Assembly: GCA_016199245.1 (NCBI GenBank)
Contig: JACQHC010000166.1
Coordinates: forward strand, 1 to 41,984
DNA: 41,984 nucleotides
Direction: 5' to 3'
Source of the DNA: Gemmatimonadota bacterium
Lineage (GTDB): Bacteria > Gemmatimonadota > Gemmatimonadetes > Gemmatimonadales > GWC2-71-9
Under the pieces are notes generated by a model. That model searched no databases and was not told the DNA's origin. It saw only the letters and a program-made list of their open reading frames with translations. The position numbers and the translations under genes are program-made. Positions 30,924-41,984 of this stretch are shown here, piece by piece (position 1 is the first letter of the stretch; each line of letters begins with the position of its first letter).

Positions 30924-30985
30924 GCGGCATGAGGGCACACGCGGCATGGGCGGCATGAAACCCGATCACATGCCGCTCATGCCGC
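30924..30985. repeat. Inverted word array (GCGGCATG x3 then CATGCCGC x2)
   Basis: GCGGCATG at 30924, 30941, 30950; CATGCCGC at 30969 and 30978. Confidence 0.85.
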
Positions 30986-31040
30986 CGGGGCGGGGCCGGG
31001 CCGTGCGGGGATGCCGCCCCTGCCGGCGGCGGGGTGCGGG

Positions 31041-31481: not shown

Positions 31482-32050
31482 TCGTCCTCGCCTCCAGCTC
31501 CCCCAGGCGCCGCCAGCTACTCGAGATGTTGGGGATTCCGCACATCGTGGACGCGGCGACCATCGACGAGCGCCAACAGCCCGAGGAGTCGCCGGAAGTC
31601 TTCGCCTCGCGGATCGCGAAGGAGAAGGCGTTGCAGGTGGCGCCGCGCCACCCGGAGCGCGCGATACTCGGCGCGGACACGGTGGTGGTGGTGGACTCCG
31701 CGACCCTCGGCAAGCCGGAGTCCCCGGACGATGCCACGCGGATGCTCGAGCTCCTGGCGGGCCGGGAGCATCGCGTGGTGACGGCGGTGGCCCTCGTTCG
31801 CCAGGGACACGTGGACGAGCGGCGCGACGTCACCCGGGTGTGGTTTCGGCCGCTGTCTCCGGAAGAGATCCGCGCCTATGTGGCCACCGGGGAGCCGCTC
31901 GACAAGGCCGGCGCCTATGGCGTGCAGGGACGAGGCGGCGCGCTCGTTGACCGGATCGAAGGGGACTTCTTCAGCGTAATGGGACTGCCGCTGCGACTGG
32001 TGCTGGAGTTGCTCGCGGCGGCCGGGATGCCCTACAGCTTCACGCGATAG
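31478..32050 (+). CDS. maf: Maf family nucleoside triphosphate pyrophosphatase
   Basis: [58 protein letters not shown]; 4-bp overlap with dtd. Confidence 0.95.
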
Positions 32051-33654
32051 ACCTGGACGGCTTGAGCCTTGCCCTTGAGCTGCATGGGCTCCACCGCTTC
32101 GAGGGCCGGCGGGTGCTTGAGCTGCTTGAAGAACGGCTCGGAGATGATGATCTCTCCGGGGCCGGCCTTGGAGCAGAGGCGTGAGGCCGTATTCACCGCG
32201 TCGCCGATCACCGTGTACTCGAGCCGGCGGTCGCTCCCGATGTTTCCCGCGAACACCTCGCCGAAGTTGATCCCGATGCCGATGTTCACGGGCCGACGGC
32301 CCGTTTCGCCCCACTTCTTGTTCAGCGCGACCAACACACGCTGCATGTTGATCGCCGCCCTCATGGCGCGATCGGCGTCGTCCTCATGACGGAGCGGCGC
32401 TCCCCAAATCGCCATGATCGCGTCACCGATGAACTTGTCGAGCGTTCCCTCGTGCTCGAAGATGATCTCCACCATCTCCGTGAAATACTCTGACAGCAGC
32501 GTGGTGATCTCGTCGGGCCCCATCGTCTCCGACATCGGGGTGAACCCCCGGATGTCGCTGAAGAAGATCACCACGGGCCGCTTCTCGCCGCTCCCCAGCT
32601 TGACGGATCCCGCCTGGCTGGCAATCTCCGCGGCCACGTTGGGGGCGAAATACCGCTGGAAGTTGGACAGGACAACGGCTTCGCGCCGAACCCGCTCCGT
32701 CAGCTGGCTGTTCTCGATCGCCACGGCCGTGATGCCGGAGAACGCGATGAGGAACTCGAGATCCTCGTCCCCGAAGGAGTTTGTCGCCGTCAGGTTGTCC
32801 ACGTAGATGATGCCGAGGACCTTCCCCTCACTCCCCATGAGCGGGGTACACATCGCGGACCGCACGCTCTGCATCAGGATGGACTGACCCTTGAACCGCT
32901 CGTCCGCGGCGGCGTTGTCCGTGAGGATCGCGAGGCGCTCGTTCACGGCCCGCCGGGCGATCGACTGCGGTACGTGGCGGCTGCCGCCCGCGTCGCCCAG
33001 GCGGTTCTTCGAGACCCGCGGTACCAGCTCGCCGGAGCCCTCCACCATCAGCATGGATACCCGGTCCACGTTCATGACCTGGAACGTGATGTCCACGACT
33101 TTCTGCAGCAGCTTGTCCACCTCCTGCTGCTTGGACAGCTCCTTCGAGATGTCGAGCAGCAAGGAGAGCTTGGTGGACTGCCGTTCGGACGTGGAGTCGC
33201 CAATCACCTTGAGCTGCGAGGCGCCGCTTGGCCGCCCCTGGATGCGCGCCTGGATATTCCCCAACTCTTCCACCGGTAGCTGGCGGACGATCGTGGCTTC
33301 GGGCGGTCTGGGGCCGAAGCCCGCGTGCGCCTCGGGCTTGGGCGGCGGCTTCATGGCCGGGGGCGTCACCTCGCGCACCCGGAATGCCACCTTGCCGAAC
33401 GTCACGGTGTCACCGTCCTGGGCCACTGCCTGGTCGGTGATCTGCGTGCCGTTGATGAAGGTCCCGTTGCTGGAGCCGAGGTCCCGCACGGACACGCTGC
33501 CGTTTCTCAGAACCACTTCGGCGTGCCGCCGGGAGACCGTGGGGTCGTAGATCGGGAGGTCGCTCGTCACCGCGCGGCCAACCACGATGGACCGGCCCTC
33601 AGCGAGGTCGACGGTCTGGTCCCCGGAAGTGCTGATCAGCTTGATTGCGGACAC
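32032..33654 (-). CDS. Adenylate/guanylate cyclase with N-terminal FHA and GAF domains
   Basis: FHA: VGRAVTSDLPIYDPTVSRRHAEV..DLGSSNGTFING; GAF; cyclase: VVIFFSDIRGFTPMSE..KFIGDAIMAIWGAP..GIGINFGEVFAGNIGS..YTVIGDAVNTASRL. Confidence 0.94.
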   Translation of the reverse strand: MSAIKLISTSGDQTVDLAEGRSIVVGRAVTSDLPIYDPTVSRRHAEVVLRNGSVSVRDLGSSNGTFINGTQITDQAVAQDGDTVTFGKVAFRVREVTPPAMKPPPKPEAHAGFGPRPPEATIVRQLPVEELGNIQARIQGRPSGASQLKVIGDSTSERQSTKLSLLLDISKELSKQQEVDKLLQKVVDITFQVMNVDRVSMLMVEGSGELVPRVSKNRLGDAGGSRHVPQSIARRAVNERLAILTDNAAADERFKGQSILMQSVRSAMCTPLMGSEGKVLGIIYVDNLTATNSFGDEDLEFLIAFSGITAVAIENSQLTERVRREAVVLSNFQRYFAPNVAAEIASQAGSVKLGSGEKRPVVIFFSDIRGFTPMSETMGPDEITTLLSEYFTEMVEIIFEHEGTLDKFIGDAIMAIWGAPLRHEDDADRAMRAAINMQRVLVALNKKWGETGRRPVNIGIGINFGEVFAGNIGSDRRLEYTVIGDAVNTASRLCSKAGPGEIIISEPFFKQLKHPPALEAVEPMQLKGKAQAVQVYRVKL

Positions 33655-33713
33655 GGAGCGCTCCCCAGCGACCGGGAATATACGCGGGCCCCGCGAACGA
33701 CGCTAACGCACGC

Positions 33714-33830
33714 GGGCGATGCTAGGCGATGGCAGGCGACGACAGGCGATGTCGGCATGGTGAGCGGCCGACTGCTACCGACACGGAAGCGGAGATCGCC
33801 GGTGATCGCCCTTCATCGCCTGTCATCGCC
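33714..33830. repeat. Inverted decamer array (GGCGATG words then CATCGCC words)
   Basis: GGCGAYG at exact 10-bp steps (words starting 33714, 33724, 33734, 33744) and YATCGCC/GATCGCC ending at 33800, 33810, 33820, 33830. Confidence 0.85.
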
Positions 33831-35313
33831 CTCCCGCGAGCGCCAGCGCGCGGAGCACGGCGCGGGCCTTGCTCTCCGTCTCCTCGAACTCGCGCGCCGG
33901 GTCGCTGTCCGCCACGACGCCCGCGCCGGCCTGCACCCAGGCGCGCCCGCCGGCCAGCACCGCCGCCCGGATCGCGATCGCCGTGTCGAGCGTTTCCGCC
34001 CCCCAACCAACGTATCCGACGGCCCCTGCGTACGGGCCGCGACGCACGGGCTCCAACTCGTCGATCAATTGCATGGCCCGGACCTTGGGCGCGCCACTCA
34101 CCGTGCCGGCGGGGAAGCTCGCGCGCAGCGCGTCGAGACCATCCAGGCCGGGCCGCAGCCGTCCCCGCACCTCGCTCACGATATGCTGCACGTGAGAGTA
34201 CCGCTCGATGACCTCCTGCTCCGTCACGCGCACGGTCCCGAACTCCGCAACTCGGCCGACATCGTTGCGCCCCAGGTCGACCAGCATGCGGTGCTCCGCA
34301 AGCTCTTTCTCATCGGCCAGCAACGACCGCGCCAGGGCATCGTCCTCCTCGGGCCCGGCGCCCCGCGGCCGCGTGCCGGCGATCGGCCGAACGATGACCT
34401 CCCGGTCCGCGACGCGCACCAGCACTTCCGGCGAGCTCCCGACCAGTGCCAGCTCGTCGAGCTGGAGGAAGAAGAGATAGGGCGCCGGGTTCAGGGCTCG
34501 CAGCGCCCGGTACACGTAGAACGGATTGGCGGCGCAAGGGAGCTCCTGGCGCCGCGAGAGCACCACCTGGAAGACATCGCCGGCGCGGATGTGTTCCCGG
34601 ATCTGCTCGACGTCGCGCTCGAACGCTTCGCGGCCATACGGCGACGTGGGCGCCGGCTCCCCGCCTCCATCGAGGGCGAGCGCAGGAAGCGACGGCGGAT
34701 GAGTCAGTCGGCTCAGCAACTCTTCGATGCGCTGCTCGGCGCCTTCGTAGGCGCGGGCCAACACGTCGCGCGTGGCGCCTGGCGGTACGTCCGCGTTCGC
34801 CACGATGACAGCGCGGCCAAATACGTTGTCGAGTATCACCAGCGTATCCGCCAGCATGAACATGGCGTCCGGGAGACCGCGGTCGTCCGCCGGCGGCGTG
34901 GGCAATCGCTCGATGCTCCGCACCACGTCGTAGCCCAGGTATCCCACGAGCCCCCCGGTGAACGGCGGCAGCCCTGGCGTGCGCTCAGCCCGCCGCGGTC
35001 GGACGAGCGAGCCGATGTGGGCGAACAGGTCCTCGATCGGGCCAGCGGAATTCCACCCTTCGTCGGGGCTCCATCGCTCCGCCGAGCCCGCCCGGTAGCG
35101 CCACGCTTCACGGGGCGCCGTGCCCACGAACGAGTATCTGGCCCACCGTTCTCCACCGACGACCGACTCCAGAAGAAACGCGAACGGAGGACGTGCAACG
35201 GCAGCGCAGGCTACGACGGGCGTCAGCGTGTCGGCGGAGAATTCCCGGGAGACGGGAATGAGCCCGCCGCGCACGGCGCGGGCCGCGAACGCCTCAAAGC
35301 CGGTGGTCGTCAC
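33823..35313 (-). CDS. trpE: Anthranilate synthase component I
   Basis: PFTGGLVGYLGYDVVRSIE; GDVFQVVLSRR; RPIAGTRPRG; HRMLVDLGRNDVGRV; FPAGTVSGAPKVRAMQLIDELEP. Confidence 0.92.
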   Translation of the reverse strand: MTTTGFEAFAARAVRGGLIPVSREFSADTLTPVVACAAVARPPFAFLLESVVGGERWARYSFVGTAPREAWRYRAGSAERWSPDEGWNSAGPIEDLFAHIGSLVRPRRAERTPGLPPFTGGLVGYLGYDVVRSIERLPTPPADDRGLPDAMFMLADTLVILDNVFGRAVIVANADVPPGATRDVLARAYEGAEQRIEELLSRLTHPPSLPALALDGGGEPAPTSPYGREAFERDVEQIREHIRAGDVFQVVLSRRQELPCAANPFYVYRALRALNPAPYLFFLQLDELALVGSSPEVLVRVADREVIVRPIAGTRPRGAGPEEDDALARSLLADEKELAEHRMLVDLGRNDVGRVAEFGTVRVTEQEVIERYSHVQHIVSEVRGRLRPGLDGLDALRASFPAGTVSGAPKVRAMQLIDELEPVRRGPYAGAVGYVGWGAETLDTAIAIRAAVLAGGRAWVQAGAGVVADSDPAREFEETESKARAVLRALALAGGR

Positions 35314-40327: not shown

Positions 40328-40331
40328 GGCG

Positions 40332-40411
40332 GTGAGAGGTAAGAGGTCAGAGGTGAGAAGTCGACCAGCCGCCGTCTCACCTCTTACCACTCCTCACCTC
40401 TTGCCTCTTAC
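40332..40411. repeat. Inverted heptad array (GTNAGAG words then CTCTNAC words) between convergent genes
   Basis: GTGAGAG.GTAAGAG.GTCAGAG.GTGAGAA at 40332-40359; inverted GTCTCAC.CTCTTAC.cac.TCCTCAC.CTCTTGC.CTCTTAC at 40374-40411. Confidence 0.9.
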
Positions 40412-41984
40412 GTCTTCCGCCTCACCGCCGCCAGCACCTCTCCCGCTGCCGCTCGCAGTTCGGCGACGTTGAACGGCTTCCAGAAAAAGCGACACCCCAG
40501 CCCCTTCAGCCACTCCTCTGTTCCGGGGCGCACATCCGCCGTCGCGAGGATCGTGCGCTCGCGCAGCGCCGGCCATCGGGTCAGCAGGATGTCGGCGAAC
40601 GCGCTCCCGTCAGGCACCGAGGCTCGGGGATCAGCGATGACCAGGTCGAATTCCCGCTGCCCCAGCAGCTCCACGCCGTGCGCGGCATCGGGCGCCGCCT
40701 CCACGTGATGACCGTCCGAGGAAAACAGCGCGCTGATCATGCGGCGGACCGCGGGATCGCCGTCCACCACTAGCACGTTCTTCGATCGGCGCGATCCCGC
40801 GGCTGCGCTTGGTGCGGAGGCCGGGGTGACAGCCGACGGCCCGCGCGAGGACGGGATGCTCATGACGAACAGAGCGCCTCCCAGAGTCCCGCGCCGCGCC
40901 TGGAGCGTGCCGCCGTGCCGCTCAACGATGTTGAAGGACAACGACAAGCCCAGTCCCGTGCCCTGGCCCGGTTCCTTGGTCGTGAAGAAGGGGTTGAAGA
41001 TGTTGGTGAGAAGCTCGTCGGGCACACCGGGGCCCGTGTCCTCGACCTCCAGGAGCACGCGGCCGTCCGCGTTGCGAGTCCGCAGGGTGACCAGTCGCGG
41101 CTGGCCGGCGGGATTGTCGCCCACGGCCTGGACCGCGTTGGTCAACAGGTTCACCACGACCTGCTGCAACTGATAGCGGTCCCCGCGCACCAGCGTGAGG
41201 TCGGACGCGAGCTCGGTCCGGAGATCGATCTCGCGCAGCCGGACCTCGTAGCCGATTAGCAGCGCCGTGCGCCGCGCGACGTCGTTCAGATCCACCGCGC
41301 CCATCTCGGCCTGACCCTGCCGGGCGAAGGAGAGCAGGTTGCGCACGATCTTGCCGGCACGCTCCGCTTGCTCGTGCACGACGCTCAAATGCTCCCGCGT
41401 CCGCACCGTCGTGTCCGATTGCTCGAGCAGCAGGTCCGCAAGGCCCGCAATCGAAGTCAGCGGGTTGTTGAGCTCGTGCGCCACTCCGGAGACGAGCTGC
41501 CCGACAGCGGCCATCTTCTCGTGTTGAATGACCTGCGCCTCGAGCGCCTTCTGCTCGGTCACGTCGTCGACCAGCGCCACGACGGACCCCCCCTCGGCGC
41601 CCGGCATCGGCGCGGCGTGCACCTGGAAGATGCGCCGGAGCCGCTCCGACCGGAGCGTGAGTCCCGGCGGCCGCGCGCCGCCCCGGGCCTGGATCAGCAT
41701 GCTCGCGACCTCAGCGGATTGGCCGAAGACGGCCGCAACGAACGGCAGGCCCGTGACCTCGGTGATCGGCCGGTCAACGATCTTCGCGAAGGCGCGATTG
41801 GCGCGCCGGACCAGGCCCCGGTCGTCCAGGACCGCTATGCCGTTCGCCAGCGCATCGAACGTGCCTTCCCATTCCTCCTTGCCCGTCTTGATCAGCTGGA
41901 ACAGGTGGCCGTTGGTAAGCACGGTGGCCGTATGGACGGCGACCGTTGTGAGCAGCCGGATCTGCCCTTCGGTGAAGGCTTCGC
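40408..41984 (-). CDS. Hybrid sensor histidine kinase (GAF remnant - PAS - HisKA - HATPase - receiver); truncated by window end
   Basis: EKMAAVGQLVSGVAHELNNPLTSIAGLADLL H box; NLLTNAVQAV; DTGPGVPDELLTNIFNPFFTTKEPGQGTGLGLSLS; C-terminal receiver VLVVDGDPAVRRM..WKPF; reading frame open to base 41984 (EAFTEGQIRLLTTVAVHTATVLTNG). Confidence 0.92.
   Translation of the reverse strand, partial: EAFTEGQIRLLTTVAVHTATVLTNGHLFQLIKTGKEEWEGTFDALANGIAVLDDRGLVRRANRAFAKIVDRPITEVTGLPFVAAVFGQSAEVASMLIQARGGARPPGLTLRSERLRRIFQVHAAPMPGAEGGSVVALVDDVTEQKALEAQVIQHEKMAAVGQLVSGVAHELNNPLTSIAGLADLLLEQSDTTVRTREHLSVVHEQAERAGKIVRNLLSFARQGQAEMGAVDLNDVARRTALLIGYEVRLREIDLRTELASDLTLVRGDRYQLQQVVVNLLTNAVQAVGDNPAGQPRLVTLRTRNADGRVLLEVEDTGPGVPDELLTNIFNPFFTTKEPGQGTGLGLSLSFNIVERHGGTLQARRGTLGGALFVMSIPSSRGPSAVTPASAPSAAAGSRRSKNVLVVDGDPAVRRMISALFSSDGHHVEAAPDAAHGVELLGQREFDLVIADPRASVPDGSAFADILLTRWPALRERTILATADVRPGTEEWLKGLGCRFFWKPFNVAELRAAAGEVLAAVRRKT

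Follow-up and report, generated by a model that had tools for sequence, protein, structure and literature searches.

A phased decamer array at the 3' end of trpE is one copy of a dispersed hairpin-forming repeat in a Gemmatimonadota genome

The trpE gene of a Gemmatimonadota bacterium ends in a series of short words spaced at exact 10-bp steps and accompanied by the same words in inverted orientation, which raises the question of whether such an array was built in place from the end of the gene or arrived as a copy of an element that spreads. We analyzed a stretch of 41,984 nucleotides of this genome (the window), in which trpE, encoding anthranilate synthase component I (33823..35313, minus strand; Pfam Chorismate_bind, 1.3e-90, and Anth_synt_I_N), is followed downstream by a gene for an FHA-GAF-adenylate/guanylate cyclase (32032..33654, minus strand; Pfam). 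Between them lies an imperfectly palindromic element of 117 bp (33715..33831), whose limits were taken from the orthologous junction and are uncertain by a few bases. Its first arm (33715..33750, plus strand) consists of the words GGCGAT, GGCGAT, GGCGAC, and GGCGAT, starting at 33715, 33725, 33735, and 33745 and joined by the linkers GCTA, GGCA, and GACA. The arms are separated by a loop of 44 bp (33751..33794), the first bases of which, GTCGGC, match the loop end conserved across the family described below. The second arm (33795..33830, minus strand) carries the words of the first arm inverted, with ATCGCC starting at 33795, 33805, 33815, and 33825, again at steps of exactly 10 bp, and reads GGCGATGACAGGCGATGAAGGGCGATCACCGGCGAT on the minus strand.

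The pattern GGCGAYNNNNGGCGAY matched the window six times, always at the trpE array, as compared with 0.29 matches expected, and none of 100 shuffled sequences reached six matches. The exact 10-bp array and its inverse, which a preliminary description of this DNA had placed at 33714-33830, are therefore real, as is its observation that the stop codon of trpE lies within a word: the minus strand ends GGA GGG CGA TGA, so that the first word, outermost in the second arm, supplies its TGA as the stop (33823-33825). The phased GGCGATG and GGCGACG heptamers that it named are present, but they vary slightly, and the constant core, both here and in the decamer family, is GGCGAY followed by a degenerate 4-nt linker. 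The predicted RNA fold of the element was strong (-78.8 kcal/mol, z = -5.8), and the element has terminal inverted repeats of the kind used to define MITEs. A pattern scan for intrinsic terminators, with a hairpin followed by a U-tract, recovered no terminator-like site at the array, and an Rfam scan of the window returned only a tRNA.

We then surveyed the genome of this bacterium for further copies. A blastn search with the element gave 41 matches, some of which represented the two strands of one palindrome. A pattern of at least three phased words matched the 2.58-Mb genome 120 times, whereas the reversed-pattern control gave no match. Among the 100 matches listed, these triple words occupied at least 44 loci on at least 34 contigs, a few of which were GGCGAC-rich and may be coding. 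The GGCGAY decamer is a dispersed family, and the array after trpE is a single copy of a short, hairpin-forming repeat that occurs at no fewer than 40 sites in the genome, most of them gene ends. The preliminary description had taken the word to be specific to this locus and had named dispersal of the decamer throughout the genome as evidence to the contrary; such dispersal is what we observed. Like REP and REPIN sequences, the family consists of many copies of a palindromic unit that is short and intergenic. The best pair of copies detected by blastn within the genome was approximately 80% identical over most of its length, with no near-identical pair, and thus no recent transposition was seen. 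Three loci (L014, L016, and L019) contained GGCGAY arrays with a single arm, some apparently within genes or at gene starts.

The placement of these arrays was related to gene ends. In a 571-kb sample, 21 of the 24 GGCGAY arrays of at least three words lay between called genes even though 90.6% of the sample was coding, with both the coding fraction and the intergenic calls derived from a simple custom gene caller, not benchmarked against standard software. At 27 gene ends, the array began no more than 27 bp past the stop codon or overlapped it; the listing spanned -40 to +60 bp and accordingly describes adjacency at those genes rather than the frequency of more distant arrays. The stop codon was the TGA of a word in 8 of these 27 cases, and this was the first word in six of them. 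Positions between divergent genes seemed under-used (3 of 32 elements, as compared with 62 of 294 gaps).

To describe the anatomy of the family, we analyzed 23 distinct elements, obtained from 26 two-armed matches after setting aside two that duplicated overlapping ones and a third that was rich in GGCGAC. Four words were present in the left arm of 15 elements and in the right arm of 15. Word positions 1-5 were approximately 97% constant, as compared with 49-80% at linker positions, a figure favored by the detection procedure, which required exact word pairs and extended arrays only with at least five of six word matches. In a fairer test, the middle word was exact in 90 of the 108 cases in which both neighbors were exact. 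The loop ends, GTCGGCCTCCG and its inverse, were common to the two-armed copies, and 26 of 253 loop pairs scored 20 or more as compared with 2.6 in shuffled loops; relatedness of the loop interiors was not detectable among the 23 copies. The shared loop ends indicate that the two-armed copies are copies of one element. Adjacent linkers within an arm were alike at 2.00 of 4 positions, as compared with 2.11 after shuffling. This check for a slippage signature, which the preliminary description had proposed, indicated that slippage in place was not the origin of most copies, since neighboring linkers were no more alike than shuffled ones.

Facing linkers matched at a frequency of 0.468, as compared with 0.53 in permuted pairs (lower-tail p = 0.004-0.01), and this deficit persisted once the elements had been oriented with a two-profile fit. 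A selected RNA stem was rejected as an explanation of the family, because facing linkers in the two-armed copies showed no covariation and, if anything, slightly the reverse. Insertion at hairpin tips was likewise rejected: the quasi-palindromic flanks at trpE were suggestive, but over the 23 copies such flanks occurred at chance level (p = 0.36). Direct repeats in the flanks, sought as target-site duplications, were only marginally above permuted expectation (p = 0.03-0.10), and no clear duplication emerged. In a separate case (L138, 4780-4909, on C129), one arm comprised eight ATCGCC words with seven identical linkers, a GGCGATGACG run that looks like a recent tandem expansion.

The orthologous junction in relatives bears directly on how the array came to lie at trpE. 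In G018, G005, and G016, the TAG stop of trpE stands exactly 20 nt before a TATATT motif, and the junction between trpE and the FHA gene carries no array. The window retains a TAG at the same 20-nt spacing just past the array (33703..33705, minus strand), probably the ancestral stop of trpE, followed by TATATT (33677..33682, minus strand), a motif that is kept in relatives and may be promoter-like. When the 117 bp were removed, the reading frame ended in LALAGRVR-TAG, resembling ALALARAGD and ALALARAAG in relatives. An insertion next to an ancestral stop that was kept is supported chiefly by the identical spacing of TAG and TATATT, the reading frame left without the 117 bp, and the array-free relatives, with the empty site read from spacing and frame rather than from near-identical DNA, as the relatives compared are distant (TrpE approximately 67% identical). 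Judged from these sequences, the array seems not to have grown from the 3' end of the gene, as formerly supposed, but to be a 117-bp element that landed within the final codons of trpE, where it now provides the stop codon. Other same-family relatives had different spacings. In G014 (L062), the same junction held a different phased inverted array, composed of AGGCGGTCA words at 9-bp and GAGCCGCC words at 8-bp steps. The comparison of orthologous trpE ends, suggested earlier as a means of seeing whether the word changes while phase and inversion persist, thus gave a divided answer: no array in three relatives and a different array in one. An FHA-type gene, read from sequence rather than from Pfam, followed trpE in most same-family relatives examined, and a TATAT-like motif often preceded it.

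Outside this genome, the decamer was rare. The triple-word pattern had no match in the 24 same-family genomes searched and matched once in one genome of the same order. In genome_contigs, the scan revealed a single similar array; it lies in L081, from a Gemmatimonadaceae MAG that elsewhere contained only scattered word pairs; the remaining matches in that collection were judged by eye to be unrelated. The single match among viral contigs looks like coding sequence, the plasmid scan for the element found none, and a literature search by sequence string returned nothing relevant. The decamer family looks specific to the lineage of this bacterium. Independent-looking inverted arrays of GGCGAT- or GGCGAC-like words were seen in two unrelated genomes, Halorussus (L087) and Pseudomonas GM21 (L090).

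The window contains two sister arrays with other words and periods, one of GGTNAGA heptads and inverted heptads at 7-bp steps (40331..40427) and one with a 9-bp step that pairs GCGGCATGR words with inverted TGCCGC (approximately 30935..31040). A de novo scan for any fixed-step word with a nearby inverse identified, besides the decamer, CGGCATGAG (9 bp), ACGGCATA and GGCGGTTG (8 bp), CGATGTT and AGGTGAG (7 bp), and two further 10-bp words. In a 529-kb sample of the genome, from which the window was excluded to be scanned apart and whose contigs were partly picked for holding arrays, inverted-word sites numbered 25, as compared with 4 in the reversed and 2 in the complemented control (23 versus 5 and 2 at a second setting); the control counts are above zero, so chance should account for a few of these sites, and one (L142) falls within a coding region. 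Twenty contigs taken regardless of arrays (approximately 203 kb, L141-L160) contained four sites, including L142, and zero two-armed decamer elements, which places the whole-genome density below that of the chosen contigs. GCGGCATGR-like inverted arrays with a 9-bp step were present at three more sampled loci (L122, L134, and L139). Inverted-array architecture next to a stop codon therefore recurs with unrelated words and with periods of 7, 8, 9, and 10 bp in one genome. The preliminary description's idea of an architecture shared among differing words is supported in modified form; its corollary, that the decamer itself is confined to one locus, did not hold.

Sister words were distributed patchily across relatives. 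Of 395 genomes from the phylum, 18 contained the GGTNAGA heptad, with up to 88 matches in one. Six inverted-array sites were read from the sequence of a G014 sample; they do not constitute a controlled count, as the single run with the reversed word yielded 119 raw hits, which had not been merged and are incomparable with merged sites. Samples of 14 other relatives gave none in most cases, and nine matches in G016, G012, G025, G033, and G003 looked by eye like coding sequence or chance. The 5' arm was richer in G than in C in 11 of 13 word families and tied in two (sign test, p = 0.001), a value that is only indicative, since the families were delimited by eye and the words chosen after the arrays had been seen.

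We assign a probability of about 0.6 to the reading that the array is one copy of a dispersed, non-autonomous, imperfectly palindromic intergenic repeat family that spreads as a unit and inserted at the end of trpE. The family is probably mobile. The typical unit opens with four GGCGAY words spaced every 10 bp, continues through a spacer whose ends are conserved, and closes with the inverted words. It would spread whole to gene ends; at trpE, it would have inserted a few codons ahead of the original stop, the first word now providing the stop codon. Insertion may depend on a trans-acting recombinase or transposase recognizing the phased words or a folded single strand. The likeliest effect would be a strong RNA hairpin between trpE and the cyclase gene, which could end or shield the trpE transcript. 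A search for a mobilizing enzyme that covered the Y1 transposase and reverse transcriptase families found neither in the genome of this bacterium (67% complete), nor any Y1 transposase in three relatives that carry heptad arrays and are nearly complete (G050, G034, and G028). Y1/RAYT and reverse transcriptase were not favored as mobilizers, having shown no association with array-bearing genomes.

The strong fold, the adjacency to stop codons, and the seeming scarcity between divergent genes would also suit bidirectional hairpins that the host maintains by selection as transcription ends or mRNA 3' shields and that are not mainly mobile. We consider this unlikely, albeit worth weighing, given the missing U-tract, the lack of covariation between facing linkers, and the absence of arrays from all 24 same-family genomes searched. 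The 10-bp step, the constant words amid variable linkers, and the modal count of four words per arm would also suit sites for a putative nucleoid or regulatory protein binding one face of DNA, with copies kept for binding. The earlier suggestion that a 10-bp phase sets the words on one face of the helix agrees with the retention of words while linkers vary, but sister arrays at 7-, 8-, and 9-bp steps differ in phasing and, moreover, binding by a transposase would equally predict word retention; a host binding protein accordingly appears doubtful.

The origin proposed in the preliminary description, in which replication slippage and template switching make arrays in place with locus-specific words, could draw on arrays that look recently stretched, such as the GGCGATGACG run in C129, and on the different array at the G014 junction. 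For the decamer family, it is already largely refuted by dispersed copies sharing loop ends; one word at so many loci, adjacent linkers whose resemblance did not exceed that after shuffling, and flank palindromes at chance level also stand against it, rendering it very improbable. It is a long shot that inverted arrays of short G-rich words at gene ends across this bacterial family are all built by a single process, the choice of word and of period (7 to 10 bp) depending on the lineage or on the element family; in that case, the G-rich word would make up the 5' arm, as though a templated word had been added to each of the two 3' ends of a break before they were joined.

Among known systems, the inverted arrays of GGGAATC heptads in Xanthomonas come closest. 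These and the GGGGA(C/T)T repeats of Nostoc are dispersed and intergenic, mostly comprise four units, lie downstream of a gene with the G-rich word on its coding strand, are under-used between divergent genes, and have no known function (PMC4692102). The Xanthomonas heptads often form two convergent (inverted) arrays, and they share unit number, inversion, polarity, gene-end placement, and dispersal with the arrays described here (PMC4692102). The decamer differs from the Xanthomonas and Nostoc heptads in its 10-bp unit, with a 6-bp constant core and a degenerate linker instead of 7 bp (the separate array at 40331 is a heptad array), in the presence of only GG runs in the GGCGAY core, without the GGG or longer runs that can form quadruplexes, in the common loop ends of its copies, and in the coexistence of several word families in one genome. 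The STRR of cyanobacteria are short tandemly repeated heptads; they share with the decamer family the short-unit tandem array, whereas inverted pairing, a 10-bp unit, and common spacer ends distinguish the latter. Heptads of Calothrix are cited in the same source as those of Xanthomonas (PMC4692102). The TAACTGA repeats of Beggiatoaceae are likewise lineage-patchy, dispersed, short direct repeats and mostly intergenic but, unlike the decamer arrays, sit for the most part immediately before start codons and hardly ever occur in inverted form (PMC4679880). REPINs and REP-BIME sequences with their RAYT transposases (PMC3116915, PMC8266576) resemble the decamer element in being short, palindromic, intergenic, and multi-copy, with two inverted parts and a spacer; the present family is built of phased decamers, and no Y1 transposase was found in this genome (67% complete) or in several near-complete relatives bearing heptad arrays.

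Inverted arrays of heptad words between genes were thus already known from Xanthomonas, with neither function nor mechanism established, and this genome carries several unrelated word families of one architecture, including a 10-bp family. As the 10-bp copies share loop ends, copying can be separated from slippage, and this genome provides a test case for the spread of word arrays and for their role at gene ends.
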